Shown piece by piece: positions 1 to 5,519 of a DNA stretch of 5,519 bases. Each line of letters opens with the position of its first letter. Within the stretch, counting starts at the first letter, position 1. The translations under genes were made by a program, and so were the position numbers. Source of the stretch: Methanobacteriota archaeon (GTDB lineage Archaea; Thermoplasmatota; Poseidoniia; Poseidoniales; Thalassarchaeaceae). The DNA lies in assembly GCA_002685415.1 (NCBI GenBank), contig NYXO01000036.1:1-5519 (forward strand). The letters are read 5' to 3'. The notes under the pieces were generated by a model that was given only the letters and a program-made list of their open reading frames with translations, was not told where the DNA came from and searched no databases.

Positions 1-1
1 C

Positions 2-904
2 ATGACTCTACCTCCTGCAGTTAATTGGCACTTCTGGCCCTGGTGTAACTATGGTTGCACATTTTGTTTCGCGACGTTTGAGGATATAGATAGGAGTAAC
101 AGTTTGGAAAAGGAATTGGGATTCAAACTTCTTGAAGAAATGGCCGCTGAAGGTGTCGAGAAGGTGACCTTTGTGGGAGGTGAGCCCACTCTCTGCCCGT
201 GGCTAGGAGAGTACTTAGTGAAAGCAAAGAGTCTTGGTCTAACTACGTGTATTGTATCTAATGGAACTGGGCTTTCTGAGGAATTCCTCGATTCATGGCA
301 CGAATACATAGACTGGGTGGGAATCTCGATAGATGCCTCCGATGACAGGCTTCATTACATTATGGGAAGAGGTACGAAAGCAGATCTTGCAGAGGGAAGA
401 AGTCGTCACCTTGAGGCGGCATTGTCCGCCTGGGAAAGATGTCAAAAGCTAGGAATTAGAATGAAGTTGAACACAGTTGTCTGCAAGGCCAACTTGGACG
501 ATAACATGACTGAAATAGTTCTTCAACTGATGCCTGAGAGGTGGAAGGCATTCCAGGTTCTGCCTATAGATGGGCAGAATGATGGTAGAGTGGAGGATCT
601 ACTGATTTCAGAAGATGAGTTCTTGGAATGGGTGGAGAGACACAAGGGAGTATCGAACGAAGGAATCAACTTCATTTCGGAGACAAATGAATTGATGACT
701 GGTTCCTATGTCATGATTGATTCGCTGGGCCGGTTTTACTCCAATATTGAGGGGGCGCACAAGTATACCCGCTCCATTCTCGAAATTGGTATCAAGGAAG
801 CTTGGAGGGAGAATCAGTTCAACGAACACCACTTCATTGAAAGAGAGGGGATTTACGATTGGAGGACATTGCCTTCTACGAGTGATGATTGTAATGGTGG
901 TTAA
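2..904 (+). CDS. pVip: Viperin-family radical SAM nucleotide dehydratase (prokaryotic viperin, pVip)
   Basis: 300 aa, intact, opening with ATG at the second base of the window. The radical SAM 4Fe-4S motif CX3CX2C is at C15, C19 and C22, within 'VNWHFWPWCNYGCTFCFATF', which resembles the start of known prokaryotic viperins. GGEP (59-62) is the SAM-binding motif. Viperin-specific blocks follow in the same order as in human RSAD2: 'GISID' (107-111), 'MGRG' (121-124), 'KLNTVV' (155-160), 'DDNMTE' (166-171), 'PERWKAFQ' (178-185), 'WVERHKGV' (210-217), 'SYVMID' (235-240) and 'RSILEIG' (257-263). Family knowledge: viperins convert CTP, UTP or GTP to 3'-deoxy-3',4'-didehydro nucleotides, which terminate viral RNA synthesis; the nucleotide preference here cannot be read. 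Length matches the family. A short tail of about 13 residues follows the 'YDW' near the usual C-terminus. Its stop overlaps that of the convergent SOUL gene. The upstream region, promoter and possible kinase partner are outside the window, so a slightly earlier start cannot be excluded. Confidence 0.9.
   Translation: MTLPPAVNWHFWPWCNYGCTFCFATFEDIDRSNSLEKELGFKLLEEMAAEGVEKVTFVGGEPTLCPWLGEYLVKAKSLGLTTCIVSNGTGLSEEFLDSWHEYIDWVGISIDASDDRLHYIMGRGTKADLAEGRSRHLEAALSAWERCQKLGIRMKLNTVVCKANLDDNMTEIVLQLMPERWKAFQVLPIDGQNDGRVEDLLISEDEFLEWVERHKGVSNEGINFISETNELMTGSYVMIDSLGRFYSNIEGAHKYTRSILEIGIKEAWRENQFNEHHFIEREGIYDWRTLPSTSDDCNGG
901..904. other. TTAA palindrome serving as both convergent stop codons
   Basis: TAA at 902-904 ends the viperin gene on the plus strand; TAA read on the minus strand from 903 to 901 ends the SOUL gene. 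The two coding regions therefore overlap tail to tail by four bases, with no intergenic DNA and no separate terminator; each transcript must run into the opposite gene. Confidence 0.9.
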
Positions 905-1428
905 TCATTCCAAGTGATAGGGAGATGTATCTCGTTCCTCCTCATGAATGGTAATGTCGACATTGGGTTGTCGTAAACGGCTAACTTCGCCTCTGAGGTA
1001 GGAGTTAGGCCTTCGGCCTCAACCAACTTACGCAGCTTCTTCTGTAGTCTCAGTGACTTGCTTGGGCGAGAGAGTCCTGAGAATTTCAGAACTGCAACCA
1101 CTTCCCCATCCACATGGAGCAGTTCTACTCCTGAATCGGTTGGTTTCGGGAGATCTTCTATTTTGTGTTCTGATGGCATTGTGAAGGCCATGAGAGATTC
1201 GTTACCAGATTCCCACATGTGAACGGGGGTAGTCATTGCGATGCTTTGTTGCCGTTCGTTTCCTCCAAAGATATATCCAGCGATTCTTCTGAACGGTCTA
1301 GCGGATTCACCACAATTCATACCATCTGTAGACACTCTGGCCTGAATAGTATCGGCATATTTTCTGACTTCGAAGCCACGGTACTTCTGGATTAATTCGT
1401 AGGCGGGCTCTTCGTAATTCTCCGCCAT
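901..1428 (-). CDS. SOUL family heme-binding-like protein
   Basis: 175 aa, cytoplasmic by appearance (no signal peptide or membrane segment). SOUL-family landmarks appear in order: 'YELIQKYRGFEVRKY' (10-24) as the first strand pair, 'PFRRIAGYIFGGNERQQSIAMTTPV' (45-69), which carries the characteristic GYIxGxN...IAMTTPV block, and near the C-terminus 'AVYDNP' (150-155) and 'MRRNEIHLPI' (162-171), matching the usual RRNE block. Length is normal for a single SOUL domain. Some members (p22HBP, SOUL) bind heme or tetrapyrroles, but many prokaryotic members are uncharacterised and no heme ligand can be assigned from sequence alone. The ATG lies 8 nt after the M50 stop, and a weak purine-rich stretch (TAGGGA) overlaps that stop, so the two genes are probably cotranscribed and translationally linked. 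The stop codon shares the TTAA at 901-904 with the viperin stop. Confidence 0.88.
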   Translation of the reverse strand: MAENYEEPAYELIQKYRGFEVRKYADTIQARVSTDGMNCGESARPFRRIAGYIFGGNERQQSIAMTTPVHMWESGNESLMAFTMPSEHKIEDLPKPTDSGVELLHVDGEVVAVLKFSGLSRPSKSLRLQKKLRKLVEAEGLTPTSEAKLAVYDNPMSTLPFMRRNEIHLPITWND

Positions 1429-1436
1429 CTTTGTCC

Positions 1437-2288
1437 CTATCCTAACATACTAGGCAAGATGTTCATGTTGAACCACACCAGGCCTGCAAAAACTGAAACC
1501 CATATCCAATAAATTGAGTTGGACCAAGTCTTCACCTTTCTTCCATCGAGTGGTCCGAATGGTATCATATTGAAGGCACCAAGGCCAACATTGACCCAGC
1601 ACCAATAGTAGAGGAGGCCGTTGTTGCCATAGGTGAATTCTGTCGATTCAAGCCCGAGTGATATCAATCCAAGTCCGACTGCCCACAACATGATGTTGCT
1701 GAGGGGTCCTGCAAGTGCGATCTTGCCGAATTGTTGCTTAGTTGTGTTTCCCATCACCATTACTGCACCGGGGGCCATGAAAACTATCCCAAGTAAGGCG
1801 GCGAGAATTATTCCAAACCGAAGGCCTCCAGGTGATGCTCTAAATTCGGCCCAGCAACCATAGTGGCGGGCGGATACTTTGTGGGCTAATTCGTGAACTA
1901 TGAAAGCTGGAGCAGCGGGAATCATCCAGAACAAACCCCCCATCAAAAATGCACTAGGAGAATTCAGTGCTCCGAATATACCACCCACAGACATGAAGGC
2001 GAGAGCCACCGAAAAAGCCAGTGTGGCTTGAAAGAGATGTTCGATTTCCGTTCTCGAAAAATGCCATATTGAACCTTTGTGGATGTAGACTCTTCTTGGT
2101 TGAGGCTCCTCGCCAAACACTCGGAAGAATGGTTGGCCTCCTTGACCATTGCTCGCGAATACGACTCTGACGTGTGGCTGTCTCCAGTTTCCGTCGTCCC
2201 TTGCCCGAGTATGGCTTCCAGGTGAGCGTGTGCGCTCGAATGGATCCTCTTCCAAGCGAGACGCGCGAGGGTCTCTCTCCGCTGCCAT
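1437..2288 (-). CDS. Site-2-protease-like M50 intramembrane zinc metalloprotease
   Basis: 283 aa. Zinc site: HELAH (132-136, HExxH) in a hydrophobic segment, with D248 of 'FGPLDGRKV' (244-252) as the likely third ligand; the family's 'GPLSN' is at 194-198. These are the defining M50 elements. About five or six hydrophobic segments are visible, near 86-108, 115-132, 156-178, 190-211, 226-243 and 259-277. The first ~78 residues are charged and low in hydrophobics, probably a cytosolic tail, ending in 'IWHFSRTEIEHL', a lead-in seen in archaeal M50 proteins. 'YGCWAEFRASPGGLRFG' after the HExxH also looks archaeal. Family role: cleavage of membrane-embedded substrates such as regulators or signal-peptide remnants; the substrate is unknown. 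There is no PDZ domain. ATG at 2288 is preceded by only a weak GTGAG stretch. The gap from the upstream zinc-ribbon gene is 43 nt, and the SOUL gene follows after 8 nt. Confidence 0.88.
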   Translation of the reverse strand: MAAERDPRASRLEEDPFERTRSPGSHTRARDDGNWRQPHVRVVFASNGQGGQPFFRVFGEEPQPRRVYIHKGSIWHFSRTEIEHLFQATLAFSVALAFMSVGGIFGALNSPSAFLMGGLFWMIPAAPAFIVHELAHKVSARHYGCWAEFRASPGGLRFGIILAALLGIVFMAPGAVMVMGNTTKQQFGKIALAGPLSNIMLWAVGLGLISLGLESTEFTYGNNGLLYYWCWVNVGLGAFNMIPFGPLDGRKVKTWSNSIYWIWVSVFAGLVWFNMNILPSMLG

Positions 2289-2331
2289 TGCCTATCTCAC
2301 TCTACTCGTCTCGTTTGAAGGCTCGTTCTTC

Positions 2332-2850
2332 TCAATCCTCATCGAGTAATTCGCCGACCTCATCTAACAAATCATCCCAAGTTGGGGCTTCTGGCCTTTT
2401 TGCGGTTCCGAACATTTGCAGCATTTCTTCTCTTTCCTCAGCGTCCGGGGCGCGTTCTGCCCAAGGATTCTGATTAGCGACTTCTCGGATTAATGATTTG
2501 TCTTTCTTGGCTCTCTGTGCAGCGAATCTTGCCTCTACTTGCTCCATTGTGATGACTTCCTCAACCCCTTGGTGAGCATCGATAAGTCGAACATAATTTA
2601 GCATGAAATTACCATGTTCACTATCGTCGATATATTTGCTAGGGTCTGCTAACATGGTTACTTGCTCGCGCGCTAAGCGTTCCGCTTTAGTTGTCGCAGG
2701 ACCTGAAGTCAACTTGTCTCGTGCCTTTGCGTGCGACTCGATGCACCCCCTACATCGCTCGGTCCCGGCTATATCTGGGGCATCGCAACTAAGGCAGCAA
2801 ACTGCGAAGCCCATCTGTTCCATAGCTCGTCGGGGTAATGACATGGACAT
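2332..2850 (-). CDS. Zinc-ribbon-containing hypothetical protein
   Basis: 172 aa; no named family recognised. The N-terminus has two CxxC knuckles, C19-x2-C22 and C33-x2-C36 (with an extra C18), spaced as in a small zinc ribbon and followed by H40. The rest is hydrophilic and apparently helical, rich in Glu, Asp, Lys and Ala ('EQVEARFAAQRAKKDKSLIREVANQNPWAERAPDAEEREEMLQMFG'), and ends in an acidic segment 'WDDLLDEVGELLDED'. There is no signal peptide or membrane segment, so it is probably cytosolic, with a zinc-stabilised head and a helical tail suited to protein or nucleic-acid contacts; that role is inference. ATG at 2850 is the first in-frame ATG, but M3, M10 and M13 are alternatives and none has a clear Shine-Dalgarno. 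It lies 47 nt after the S15 gene and 43 nt before the M50 gene, and may be the first gene of a sub-operon if the 2891-2905 element is a promoter. Confidence 0.75.
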   Translation of the reverse strand: MSMSLPRRAMEQMGFAVCCLSCDAPDIAGTERCRGCIESHAKARDKLTSGPATTKAERLAREQVTMLADPSKYIDDSEHGNFMLNYVRLIDAHQGVEEVITMEQVEARFAAQRAKKDKSLIREVANQNPWAERAPDAEEREEMLQMFGTAKRPEAPTWDDLLDEVGELLDED

Positions 2851-2890
2851 GGGGCGCTCTAGGCTCTGAAAGATGAATGCTCCCGCTCAA

Positions 2891-2905
2891 TGATATCTCA
2901 AGCCT
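2891..2905 (-). promoter_or_regulatory. Second copy of the S15 promoter element, upstream of the zinc-ribbon gene
   Basis: On the minus strand this reads AGGCTTGAGATATCA, differing from the 4720-4734 copy at one of 15 positions. It overlaps the last codons and stop of the S15 gene and ends 40 nt before the zinc-ribbon ATG. As a TATA-type element it would start a transcript with a leader of roughly 20 nt, but no Shine-Dalgarno is visible in that leader. It may be an internal promoter for the zinc-ribbon, M50 and SOUL genes, or a chance resemblance. Confidence 0.25.
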
Positions 2906-4700
2906 CATGTTGAGGCGTAATCAGGACATTTGAACCATTTCTATCAATAAGCGGTGCTTCAAACACAGATAGCGAAGGGAGGATGTGAACCGTACATACA
3001 TTTCCACAGGCAGGGGCCAAGTAGTCTTGTCCTTGATCACTGAAGATGAAACGAAGACCGTGGCCGGCAGGAAGTAGTGCGTCTATCCCTTGAAACTCCA
3101 TCAACATGGTTATTTGCTCGCCTGGAATAACTGTCTGTGGCTCATACCCTCCTTCGTAATATCTCACATCCATGGTAGCATGACCAATGCGCATTCCAGT
3201 TTCAGCATCCTGCATTTCGATGAATACTTGTCCGCCATTGAAAGTAGGCACTGCAGAAAGATGAAGTGTTGGTAGACCAGAAATATGGAGGTCTGTGTCT
3301 TCGTTTATTGATGGGCATTCCACCACGACTGTTTGACCACCTCCGACAACTGAGGGGCCGCCACCAACAAATGCACCGTCATTGACACATTCGCTAAGTG
3401 GAAGAGTGAACGGTTGACTGTCCTGTGGGGGCCAAGTCTCCTCTATCCTCCACTCTCCGTCGTTCCTTTGTATCTGAGCATCTAAGGTCGGTTTAGGACC
3501 TCTTTCTTGTAGATAATATTCGAACCATTCGAAGAGGTCCTGCGCCCAATCCCATCGTGTCATGTTTGCTAGGGCTTCGTAACCATATCCGGGGTCCACT
3601 CCTTCATGGCTGTTAATCTGGTCTGGATAATGGTGACCCCATTGACCAAGCATACCTCGGATTTCGAATCCTGCATCAATATACGACTGGTACCAATTAG
3701 TCCCTGGTGGGCCGCCGAAAACCTGGTGTGGGTCGACGTTCCAATCTTGCATTCCTTGAACCCAATATACACTCCCATTCCAATTTAGAAATGCTTTGTC
3801 GATATGGCTTCTTTCGTCGTAATAGTTTTCCATATATGGATCCATTTCGCCTGCGATATAAGTGACTGGTCCCGCAAATATACCCTCTACTATATCGGGA
3901 CATATGTTGTCAAAATCATCCTCATTGTAGTCTACTGTGCTGGAAAAATAGTTCATGTGCATAATTTGACTTCTTGCCTCTGCACTTCCATTCTTGTAGA
4001 GAAGAGGGTGTAATGCTGTAGTTCCAGATACTGGTACTATTGTCTTCAGATACTCGCTTCCGATTGCAGCGGCTTCCCACTGCGTTGCTCCTTCATACGA
4101 TTTGCCGTATAGTCCGACATTACCATTGCTCCAATTTTGACTACCCAACCACTCCACGGCAGAATGTATCCCCAAACCTTCACCGGCTCCTCTGTAGTCG
4201 AAACACCCGCTGGATTCCTCTGTGCCAAATACTGCCACTTGCGCCATAGCGTAGCCATGTGGTACGAAGTTTTGGAATATGAATTCACCACGACCAGAAC
4301 TTACAACATTTGTTGGAGATGATTCGCTGCCTTGCGCGCCATAGTCAAAGTAGGGGCTGATGATTGCTATCACAGGTACCTTCTCTCCATCGAGCGTATT
4401 GTTTGGAAGCCAGTAAGAAAGGTGTACGGTTGACTGAGATGGGCCGGTCTCCCACACATCACTGGTGTCTACTTCGATGTAAGCTTCTGCAACTTCCAAT
4501 GCTTGGTAAGGTCCGGGATTTAGAAGGAAGGACATTGAATCGTCCATTTGCCATTCCAAGGTGTGCCTTTCCCAAATTGGAGTATACGGAGATTCTTCAA
4601 TTGGAGTTCGCGATTCTTCATCGGCCCAGAATACGCAGCCAGATAGGCTCGTAGTCAGCAGTAGCAAAACTGCCGCTCCCGCGTACGTACACCGCCTCAT
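2898..4700 (-). CDS. Exported lipoprotein peptidase/acyl hydrolase, S15 (X-Pro dipeptidyl-peptidase/CocE) family
   Basis: 600 aa from ATG at 4700. Residues 1-22 are a lipoprotein signal: RR at 2-3, a hydrophobic core and the lipobox LSGC with C22 as the lipid-anchored cysteine. An alpha/beta-hydrolase domain follows: 'VPVIAIISPYFDYG' (108-121), the nucleophile elbow GKSYEG with S201, the likely catalytic D319 in 'VQGMQDWNVDP', and catalytic H356 or H357 in 'GQWGHHYPD'. This Ser-Asp-His order and the GxSYxG elbow fit S15/CocE. The C-terminal part (about 420-580, including 'LHISGLPTLHLSAVP' and 'GHATMDVRYYEGG') is the jelly-roll PepX_C-like domain. Cysteines outside the signal (C166, C267, C438, C462, C565, C569) are even in number and could pair outside the cell. 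The likely role is cleavage of proline-containing peptides at the cell surface; esterase activity is an alternative. An in-frame TTG at 4757 would add 19 residues ahead of the signal peptide and is rejected. The upstream region is divergent to the MFS gene. Confidence 0.9.
   Translation of the reverse strand: MRRCTYAGAAVLLLLTTSLSGCVFWADEESRTPIEESPYTPIWERHTLEWQMDDSMSFLLNPGPYQALEVAEAYIEVDTSDVWETGPSQSTVHLSYWLPNNTLDGEKVPVIAIISPYFDYGAQGSESSPTNVVSSGRGEFIFQNFVPHGYAMAQVAVFGTEESSGCFDYRGAGEGLGIHSAVEWLGSQNWSNGNVGLYGKSYEGATQWEAAAIGSEYLKTIVPVSGTTALHPLLYKNGSAEARSQIMHMNYFSSTVDYNEDDFDNICPDIVEGIFAGPVTYIAGEMDPYMENYYDERSHIDKAFLNWNGSVYWVQGMQDWNVDPHQVFGGPPGTNWYQSYIDAGFEIRGMLGQWGHHYPDQINSHEGVDPGYGYEALANMTRWDWAQDLFEWFEYYLQERGPKPTLDAQIQRNDGEWRIEETWPPQDSQPFTLPLSECVNDGAFVGGGPSVVGGGQTVVVECPSINEDTDLHISGLPTLHLSAVPTFNGGQVFIEMQDAETGMRIGHATMDVRYYEGGYEPQTVIPGEQITMLMEFQGIDALLPAGHGLRFIFSDQGQDYLAPACGNVCTVHILPSLSVFEAPLIDRNGSNVLITPQHEA
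2902..2916. repeat. Short inverted repeat at the 3' end of the S15 gene
   Basis: GCCTCA, a 3-nt spacer, then TGAGGC: six perfect pairs within the last codons of the S15 gene, immediately next to the 2891-2905 element. There is no T-run after it on the minus strand, so an intrinsic terminator is not supported. Its sequence resembles the 4692-4708 palindrome (both contain GCCTCAT followed shortly by GAGGCG). Confidence 0.3.
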
Positions 4701-4708
4701 AGAGGCGG
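4692..4708. repeat. Perfect inverted repeat spanning the S15 start codon
   Basis: CCGCCTC (4692-4698), a 3-nt spacer, then GAGGCGG (4702-4708): seven perfect G+C-rich base pairs. The S15 ATG (4700-4698) lies across the spacer and the edge of one arm. If the S15 transcript is leaderless, the palindrome straddles the transcription start, a position suited to a repressor operator. If there is a 5' leader, the RNA hairpin would bury the start codon. Confidence 0.5.
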
Positions 4709-4719
4709 CCTGAAGGAGG

Positions 4720-4734
4720 TGATATCTCAAACCT
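4720..4734 (-). promoter_or_regulatory. Candidate leaderless-type promoter element of the S15 gene
   Basis: On the minus strand this reads AGGTTTGAGATATCA. Taking the A of the S15 ATG as +1, TTGAGATA lies at -30 to -23, where an archaeal TATA box sits when the transcript starts at the start codon. There is no Shine-Dalgarno before the ATG, which fits leaderless translation. The box is a poor match to the canonical TTTATATA, so this rests on position and on recurrence of the element at 2891-2905. Confidence 0.35.
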
Positions 4735-4737
4735 GCG

Positions 4738-4745
4738 TATTCAAA
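4738..4745 (+). promoter_or_regulatory. Candidate TATA-like box of the MFS gene
   Basis: TATTCAAA lies at -31 to -24 relative to the GTG at 4769, the expected TATA-box distance for a leaderless archaeal transcript. The absence of a Shine-Dalgarno directly upstream of the GTG supports this reading. Single-site evidence only. Confidence 0.3.
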
Positions 4746-4768
4746 GGCCCAGTGCAACCGGCTAAACT

Positions 4769-5519
4769 GTGGATGATGAAACGGTTCACAGACGCCGCTG
4801 GGCGATCCTAGGTGTAATGAGTATGAGTCTCATTATTGTCATGCTGAATAACGTGACATTGAATGTCGCACTTCCTGAACTCTCAAAGGACCTGAAAGCA
4901 GACAATACAGAGCTACAGTGGATCTTGGATGCTTACGCTTTGGTTTTTGGTGGTCTGCTCCTTGTTATGGGTGCATTGGGAGATAGATTTGGTCGGAAAG
5001 GGGCGTTACAAATCGGACTCTTATTGGTTGCAACTGCCTCAGCCCTTACTGCAACTTATGCAACCACTTCTGGAGAGGTCATCGCGGCTCGCGCAGTAAT
5101 GGGAATTGGTGCTGCTCTTGTAATGCCGGCAACCCTCTCTGTTGTAGTAGTTGTATTCCCTCCTGAAGAGAGGGGGAAAGCTGTCGGAATTTGGGCCGCT
5201 ATGGCCGGAATCGGTGCTCCGATTGGATTGCTTGTTGGGGGATGGGCTGTTGAGAATTATGACTGGCAAATGGTCTTCTGGATCAATGTCCCAATTATTG
5301 CTTTGGCGCTACTTCTTGGTCTGGTTTTGGTTCCTAAATCCAAAGATAATCAAGAGCGCCCTCTAGACCCAGTAGGGGCAATTCTATCGACAGGCGCCTT
5401 GGTATCGATTCTCTATGCCATAATCGAGGCCCCGAGTCATGGTTGGACCTCGCCAGAAACCATTGCGGTTGCTGCACTAGGATTGTTATTCACAGCCATA
5501 TTCATTCGATGGGAAAGGC
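4769..5519 (+). CDS. DHA2-type MFS multidrug exporter (EmrB/QacA family), 3' end outside window
   Basis: First 250 residues, cut by the window end with the frame open. The GTG at 4769 is chosen because it gives the usual cytosolic lead 'MDDETVHRRRWAILGV' before TM1; ATGs at 4817 and 4823 would remove the basic RRRW anchor. Membrane segments appear near 12-34, 51-70, 79-98, 104-126, 138-158, 168-190, 202-221 and 230-247. MFS motif A is 'GALGDRFGRKGAL' (68-80); motif B lies around R108 ('AARAVMGIGAALVMPATLS'); motif C is around 147-158 ('GIGAPIGLLVGG'). 'WQMVFWINVP' (166-175) and 'LNVALPEL' (31-38) are typical of 14-TM proton-coupled drug exporters. The position of the TM1 acidic residue of QacA (D34) is N27 here. 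Substrate unknown. Transcribed divergently from the S15 gene, with 68 bp between start codons and no Shine-Dalgarno before the GTG. Confidence 0.9.
   Translation, partial: MDDETVHRRRWAILGVMSMSLIIVMLNNVTLNVALPELSKDLKADNTELQWILDAYALVFGGLLLVMGALGDRFGRKGALQIGLLLVATASALTATYATTSGEVIAARAVMGIGAALVMPATLSVVVVVFPPEERGKAVGIWAAMAGIGAPIGLLVGGWAVENYDWQMVFWINVPIIALALLLGLVLVPKSKDNQERPLDPVGAILSTGALVSILYAIIEAPSHGWTSPETIAVAALGLLFTAIFIRWER

Follow-up and report, generated by a model that had tools for sequence, protein, structure and literature searches.

A viperin gene of Marine Group II archaea that is likely part of a strain-variable, HNH-led insertion

The Marine Group II archaea, an abundant oceanic lineage, are uncultured and, to our knowledge, few of their defences have been described. 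The stretch of DNA analysed here (the window) is the initial 5519-base part of a contig of 10,368 bases (C8 of the draft genome G000, which is 67.6% complete and consists of 85 contigs). It opens on a gene that the initial annotation, made from the sequence alone, took for a viperin of a Marine Group II-like host whose defences are little studied. The latter statement holds in part, but PMC12988326 already includes viperin among the defences of Thermoplasmatota. The locus raises two connected questions, namely, whether the gene is indeed a viperin of this archaeal group, and how it came to stand where it does. The answer that we favour, with fairly good confidence, is that it encodes a full-length Marine Group II viperin predicted to make a chain-terminating ddh-nucleotide analogue, and that the gene is likely the second one of an insertion led by an HNH gene.

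The viperin gene, its host and its relatives

The open reading frame at 2..904 (+ strand), with an ATG start and a TAA stop at 902-904, encodes 300 aa. The protein scores 274.6 bits (E = 7.7e-82) against the viperin model NF038283, the cut-off of which is 180, matches the PADLOC pVip profile at E = 8e-78, and aligns over residues 2-288 with mouse viperin (5vsl) at E = 7.8e-46 and 160 bits, with 103 of the 274 aligned residues identical. This family match is well beyond chance and bears out the initial identification of the gene; another viperin model, TIGR04278, scores it at 172.5, under its own cut-off of 450. The contig begins one base 5' of the ATG; despite this edge, the N-terminus can be regarded as complete, judging from the open frame of a 96% identical viperin (L003), which has 308 aa, i.e., is 8 codons longer.

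The latter viperin belongs to the nearest relative found, AG-404-A19 (G210, locus L003), which we take from its isolate name to be a single-cell genome. Given that it is an uncultured Ca. Poseidoniales archaeon of the same genus as G000 and that its flanking genes are syntenic with those of the window, the guess of a Marine Group II-like host was right. The flank starts with a SOUL family gene (901..1428, - strand; PF04832, E = 3.2e-39), the right flank of the insertion site discussed below, followed by the conserved genes for a M50-type membrane metalloprotease (1437..2288, - strand; PF02163), a 172-aa protein (p172; 2332..2850, - strand) that is 100% identical in amino acid sequence to its allele on another contig of the same draft (C57), and a S15 family peptidase (2898..4757, - strand; PF02129), and by a MFS transporter gene that continues past the window end (4769..5518, + strand; PF07690). 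An extra esterase-like gene lies between the SOUL and M50 genes of L003, which is otherwise syntenic with the window. At 901-904, the stops of viperin and SOUL overlap in the palindrome TTAA, and the letters at the SOUL end of the window differ from those of the empty-site copies described below.

All six motifs that had been named from the sequence were located in the 300-aa frame, on the + strand: the [4Fe-4S] motif CX3CX2C, as CNYGCTFC (nt 44..67, residues 15-22), with its three cysteines invariant in all 40 viperin rows of the alignment; the SAM-binding motif GGEP (nt 176..187, residues 59-62), of which G, G and E are invariant in the same 40 rows; RWKxFQ, as RWKAFQ (nt 539..556, residues 180-185); ERHK.V, as ERHKGV (nt 635..652, residues 212-217); SYxxxD, as SYVMID (nt 704..721, residues 235-240); and SILxxG, as SILEIG (nt 773..790, residues 258-263). 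Among 47 mouse positions compared, 27 are identical in the window. We chose 14 of the 47 as presumed cluster or pocket residues. Twelve of these are the same in the window (N77, H79, C84, C88, C91, K120, R194, K220, N222, R245, K247 and Y302), including R245 and K247, which correspond to R180 and K182 of the RWKAFQ motif and presumably have a functional role in viperin. The two that differ, S124 (V58 in the window) and K319 (H253), are replaced in each case by the commonest letter at that position among the viperin rows, the H253-type letter being found in 23 of 39 rows. The MoaA row from the window's own genome lacks N77, H79, R194, R245, K247 and Y302. With 12 of the 14 positions matching mouse in the alignment of viperin rows, the presumed nucleotide-pocket and cluster residues are kept, in agreement with the initial expectation; Y302, which is Y236 of the SYVMID motif, has a catalytic role according to PMC8124187 and PMC9642334.

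The phylogenetic tree consists of 41 rows, including one of MoaA, and drew on 10 of the 120 homologs listed and on 8 of the 10 plasmid hits; long N-terminal extensions were trimmed beforehand. The window protein lies among the viperins, as had been anticipated, and MoaA, the outgroup, branches outside them on a very long branch. Nine Poseidoniales rows and ten metagenomic proteins form a single clade (support 100/99), and the subclade of the window (L003, P0038-P0041) is distinct within the tree. Viperins already recorded for this group (P0123, labelled Poseidonia sp.; P0048 and P0085, labelled Candidatus Thermoplasmatota archaeon) belong to the same family and are 61-62% identical to that of the window, and those of Heimdallarchaeia, 40-42% identical, form the neighbouring and closest clade to the Poseidoniales rows (support 89/87, not starred). 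The initial annotation further suggested a bearing on the origin of the eukaryotic protein, which is not supported: the only two eukaryotic rows included branch away from Poseidoniales at an unresolved basal node, and a Heimdall viperin is closer to the mouse protein (184 bits) than the window viperin is (160 bits). PMC11291487 derives the eukaryotic viperins from Asgard and reports anti-phage activity of Asgard viperins in E. coli; according to PMC12988326, the tree presented there does not single out a phylum.

With the window protein as the query, 10 of the 318 Poseidoniales genomes give a match at 1e-20 (in one of the ten, G138, viperin is interrupted by a contig end); among the 35 high-quality genomes of the order, viperin is present in one, and across the phylum the NF038283 cut-off is passed in 12 of the 389 genomes sampled. 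For both Poseidonia and Thermoplasmatota, public records contain proteins named "viperin family antiviral radical SAM protein". Because these records and PMC12988326 already give viperin in Thermoplasmatota, the window gene alone is a further member of a known family, and the new part is its setting. In the Marine Group II chromosome record CM001443.1, a viperin start (L012:8001-8139) is cut short by unread bases (N) some 41 residues in, so that annotation of this record would miss the gene.

A strain-variable insertion between the M28-peptidase and SOUL genes

The gene ahead of viperin in AG-404-A19 (L003:7420-8004) encodes a 194-aa HNH-type protein, and its TGA stop overlaps the viperin ATG, with an overlap of 4 bases. 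Bases 1-5 of the window equal the L003 junction letters, all five, and are annotated here as the probable last bases of an HNH-type gene (1..5, + strand), with the TGA stop at 3-5 overlapping the viperin ATG. The gene itself would lie off the contig, and a search of the rest of the draft, 67.6% complete, turned up no HNH of the L003 type, which speaks against the linkage; we infer its presence upstream of viperin in the window's strain from the L003 junction. The zinc-and-HNH motif is intact in L003 and is kept across the aligned homologs. The only Pfam match of the L003 protein is HNH_5 (PF14279; E = 1.9e-4, 21.7 bits, under the gathering score of 27.5). Its relatives in L103, L104 and L106 likewise score under the cut-off and do not pass PF01844 either, and those in L054 and L105 do pass the latter model (29.3 and 28.0, respectively, against a cut-off of 21.4). 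A search of 5.8 billion proteins, restricted to shared short words, yielded five homologs with E <= 1e-3; the PDB gave no match under E = 0.74, and no close HNH relatives were found in viral_contigs. A viral carrier was rejected, with no close viperin relative in viral_contigs and no viperin relative among phage records. A link between viperin and HNH was not found in the literature on viperin with HNH, defense islands and homing endonucleases, as covered without Bernheim 2021, Lachowicz 2021 and Shomar 2024, and a search for HNH within PMC12988326 and PMC11291487 gave no hit.

In L003, the HNH and viperin pair is inserted between a convergent M28-peptidase gene (PF04389, E = 7.8e-22) and the SOUL gene. 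We compared 16 copies of this site from two genera (L052-L063, L110, L111, L119 and L121); L120 and L123, with the M50 gene present and M28 not seen, were excluded from the count. Half of the copies are empty, with a gap of 3-19 bp (L055, L057, L058, L059, L060, L062, L063 and L121). Two carry HNH without viperin (L054, and L110, which was extended as L104 and whose 1.6-kb gap also contains two short unassigned frames), one carries HNH and viperin (L053), and one is that of the window, with viperin at the contig end (L052). Other inserts, of 385, 786 and 1320 bp, are found in three copies (L056, with a WW-domain protein, L111 and L119), and the last copy is unreadable at a contig end (L061); since the insert of L111 is partly N, it could still hold an HNH gene. 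The insertion is present in some genomes and absent from others, and the sole sequenced locus with overlapping HNH and viperin genes at this site is L003 (G210). G200 has an empty site, yet encodes a different viperin (61%) elsewhere in the genome.

In the 318 genomes, we class six HNH genes as L003-type, four of them at the M28-SOUL locus (G210, G198, G285 and G204). In G204, the HNH gene, 50% identical, adjoins M50 at the edge of a contig, and a SOUL gene was not found in this genome. The remaining two (G274 and G317) sit at other sites, as do two further HNH matches of the L019 type (G227 and G232). Between G198 and G210, the last 51 M28 residues are 96% identical whereas the HNHs are 36% identical, and therefore these nucleases came separately or evolve very fast.

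The HNH inserts of L054 and L104, which come from different genera, have identical letters at their right ends, GTCCYGGGYATGACTCTAAACTRCCC, and a similar insert end, GTCCTGGGCACGACTCTAAA, is seen in L106, at another chromosomal site. Because CTCTAAAC stands in four of the eight empty sites (L055, L058, L059 and L062) and is absent from the other four, part of the shared right-end letters may be native to the site rather than to the insert. The viperin start in both L003 and the window is ATGACTCTA, and the same nine letters are found at the right end of L054 and L104, as though viperin had become joined to the boundary of the element. This 9-mer has 23 occurrences in the partly overlapping loci, 837 kb in all; given that the overlap partly dictates ATGA, and the protein the codons after it, we treat the match as weak evidence, a lead and not a proof. 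Directly after three of the HNH genes, in another frame, there is a short basic open frame (...GRSN...KK stop; L054:980-1100, L104:5590-5710 and L106:6871-6990), which may represent a frameshift tail or a micro-protein and precedes a GTCCYGGG end common to all three. L104 and L106 also have in common a stretch of 71 nt about 100 nt before the HNH start, 73% identical and with strong folding, for which a search of Rfam gave no match.

The two contigs of the window's own draft represent different alleles, with C57 carrying the empty site (L062). The identity between C8 and C57 is 97-100% over 1505 to 3269 and 65-88% over 905 to 1505, with a sharp break at 1493..1494: there are many mismatches up to 1493 and none from 1494 to 1790, the next one being at 1791. 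This break is likely a recombination end point, and it could be an assembly chimera. In the comparison of the window with L003, dS is 0.10 for viperin, and 0.62 for SOUL, 0.60 for M50, 1.18 for p172, 0.32 for S15 and 0.82 for MFS, a difference that points to a recent transfer. Given that the viperin dS is far under that of the flanks, and given the break in identity, the simplest reading of these sequences is that viperin and part of SOUL would have reached the window's population recently via recombination. A chimeric contig could give the break but, by itself, not the dS contrast, and the arrangement in L003 is independent of it. The direct donor was not L003, because the region from about 1300 to 1493 of the window is unlike both L003 and C57.

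HNH genes beside other viperins and relationships with known systems

We scanned 29 viperin loci, namely, 10 from Poseidoniales, 8 from other Thermoplasmatota, 3 from Heimdall and 8 from plasmids, with two HNH profiles and a motif; the scan extended over 4 kb, some loci being ended by contig edges, and loci on the same contigs were counted once (L010/L014, L005/L017, L004/L015, L006/L018, L008/L021 and L003/L013). An HNH gene was found near viperin in three loci, L064 (= L003), L070 (= L019) and L071 (= L020). No HNH of the scanned types was found within 4 kb in the other 26, among them the cut window contig and L065 (= L010), L068 (= L005), L066 (= L004), L069 (= L006) and L067 (= L016); this count holds for the scanned types, because in L091 a gene annotated as DUF262-HNH, which starts 3.7 kb after viperin, escaped the scan. 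The presence of HNH beside viperin is a minority arrangement. The HNHs of L019 and L020 are longer, belong to another subfamily and are also found alone (G227 and G232). In each of the drafts G210, G030 and G231, the HNH adjacent to viperin is the only HNH_5 match, and the search of 14 genomes with this profile gave 10 matches altogether at E <= 0.1. With an estimated ~1500 genes per draft, three sole matches that all adjoin viperin are, in our informal judgement, hard to put down to chance.

In its motifs and its cluster and pocket residues, the window protein corresponds to pVip (NF038283; PADLOC PDLC02903-2905). Other Poseidoniales viperins have a kinase-like gene beside them (L014 = L010, L006 and L019), whereas L003 has HNH instead. 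The kinase-linked viperin subtype of PADLOC was rejected: no kinase was recognised among the genes within 6 kb of L003 (= L064), which were partly Pfam-scanned, and the upstream region of the window lies off the contig. Unlike the window's viperin, those of Asgard L007 and L011 are accompanied by a CARF-type regulator, a Mokosh-like helicase and a PLD-family protein, in L011 by similarity to L007.

A Mokosh MkoA-like SF1 helicase and a PLD-family protein are encoded near the viperins of Poseidoniales L010 and of Heimdallarchaeia L007 and L011, and the regions concerned are L010:757-10306, L005:6727-9493, L007:7198-14237 and L011:7199-13969. The MkoA score of the helicase is 2.9e-97 in L010 and 1.1e-78 in L007. 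The CARF-type regulator is clear in L007 (1.1e-51), whereas L005 and L010 have one from another cluster, which matches weakly (PF19810, 5.5e-4 in L005); L010 also contains the kinase-like gene, and in L005 the contig ends within the helicase. These loci possibly represent a viperin-Mokosh combination that extends over two phyla. Two other loci have distinct neighbours: in L067:3237-8989 (G200; L016), viperin has a helicase-like gene on one side and, on the other, a SAP-domain NYN ribonuclease of the Zc3h12a type, and in L066:7244-13528 the genes after viperin encode an IetA-like AAA ATPase (2e-22) and a protein that clusters with MkoA-like helicases.

Free-standing HNH homing endonucleases are a known kind of element, and the L003-type genes resemble them in being small intergenic HNH-type genes, with occupied and empty alleles at one site and a tract in common with the flanking DNA. 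Unlike in these elements, a defence-type second gene follows the putative nuclease in L003. HEARO/IscB elements combine RuvC, HNH and a guide RNA and are inserted at ATGA; the likeness here consists of HNH and of the ATGA in the right end of L054 and L104, whereas the L003 protein differs in its length of 194 aa and in having HNH_5 as its sole Pfam match, without RuvC. HEARO/IscB or a known intron was rejected, as the 7 sources scanned against Rfam gave nothing up to E = 1 and no RuvC was seen in Pfam.

Possible origins of the HNH and viperin pair and their implications

By analogy with the rest of its family, and given its residues, the viperin would convert a nucleoside triphosphate to a ddh-nucleotide during virus infection, and this product would stop viral polymerases. 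The overlap of start and stop in L003 suggests that the putative HNH nuclease and viperin would be made from one transcript, and the pair likely spreads as a unit. As suggested by the dS values and the break in identity, HNH and viperin may have entered the window's strain recently by recombination across the flanks, perhaps begun by HNH cutting the empty site. We put forward, tentatively, the hypothesis that a homing-type HNH captured viperin: it would cut the empty M28-SOUL junction, and repair would copy HNH, viperin and flanking DNA to the new strain. It is possible, and again offered with reserve, that through this predicted cleavage a selfish nuclease would disseminate an enzyme of chemical immunity among populations of Marine Group II.

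Several other explanations have to be weighed against that of a viperin carried by an HNH-led insertion. The site might be an ordinary variable spot, where viperin and HNH arrived independently of each other and plain homologous recombination produced the tract in common, with the nuclease uninvolved. The three other inserts at the site are consistent with this possibility, as are recombination tracts, which by themselves account for the dS contrast, but four of the six L003-type HNH genes are found at this single locus and unlike HNH inserts of different genera end in the same letters (GTCCYGGGYATGACTCTAAACTRCCC), an argument tempered by the occurrence of CTCTAAAC in four of the eight empty sites; on balance, we consider such unrelated arrival doubtful though conceivable. 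Selection of HNH and viperin together, as two arms of one defence system that cuts foreign DNA or RNA and poisons the polymerase, appears rather unlikely. The start-stop overlap of the two genes is compatible with it, as is the adjacency of HNH genes to two further, diverged Poseidoniales viperins (L019 and L020), the status of the viperin-adjacent HNH as the only HNH_5 match in G210, G030 and G231, and the weak match of the L019 HNH to PADLOC profiles, including Septu PtuB (E = 0.0024). However, HNH occurs without viperin at the same locus (G198, G285 and G204) and elsewhere (G274, G317, G227 and G232), seven of the ten Poseidoniales viperin loci, one of them the cut window contig, are without HNH, and the HNHs of L019 and L020 are longer and of a different subfamily.

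Two further explanations concern the gene itself. That it comes from another organism, having been mis-binned or joined in assembly, is compatible with its position at a contig end and with the break in identity to the sister contig at 1493, but is very improbable given that the presumed single-cell genome, which is of the same genus, carries this gene on a contig of 47 kb, again next to the same SOUL gene. It is even harder to credit that viperin is decaying cargo with no antiviral function: dN/dS between the window and L003 is 0.23, which exceeds the values for SOUL, M50, p172 and S15 (0.035-0.071), but this ratio is well under 1, the frame is full-length with its catalytic residues, and the homologs listed include at least 32 proteins of 300 aa (P0006-P0037) at 96-99% identity and 99-100% coverage.

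Viperin can be scored as present or absent at a single site, and this comparison extends even to two contigs from the same draft; its gain and spread are thus measurable in sequence data. If HNH mobilises viperin, defence genes would have, besides integrases and transposons, homing nucleases as a further class of carrier.
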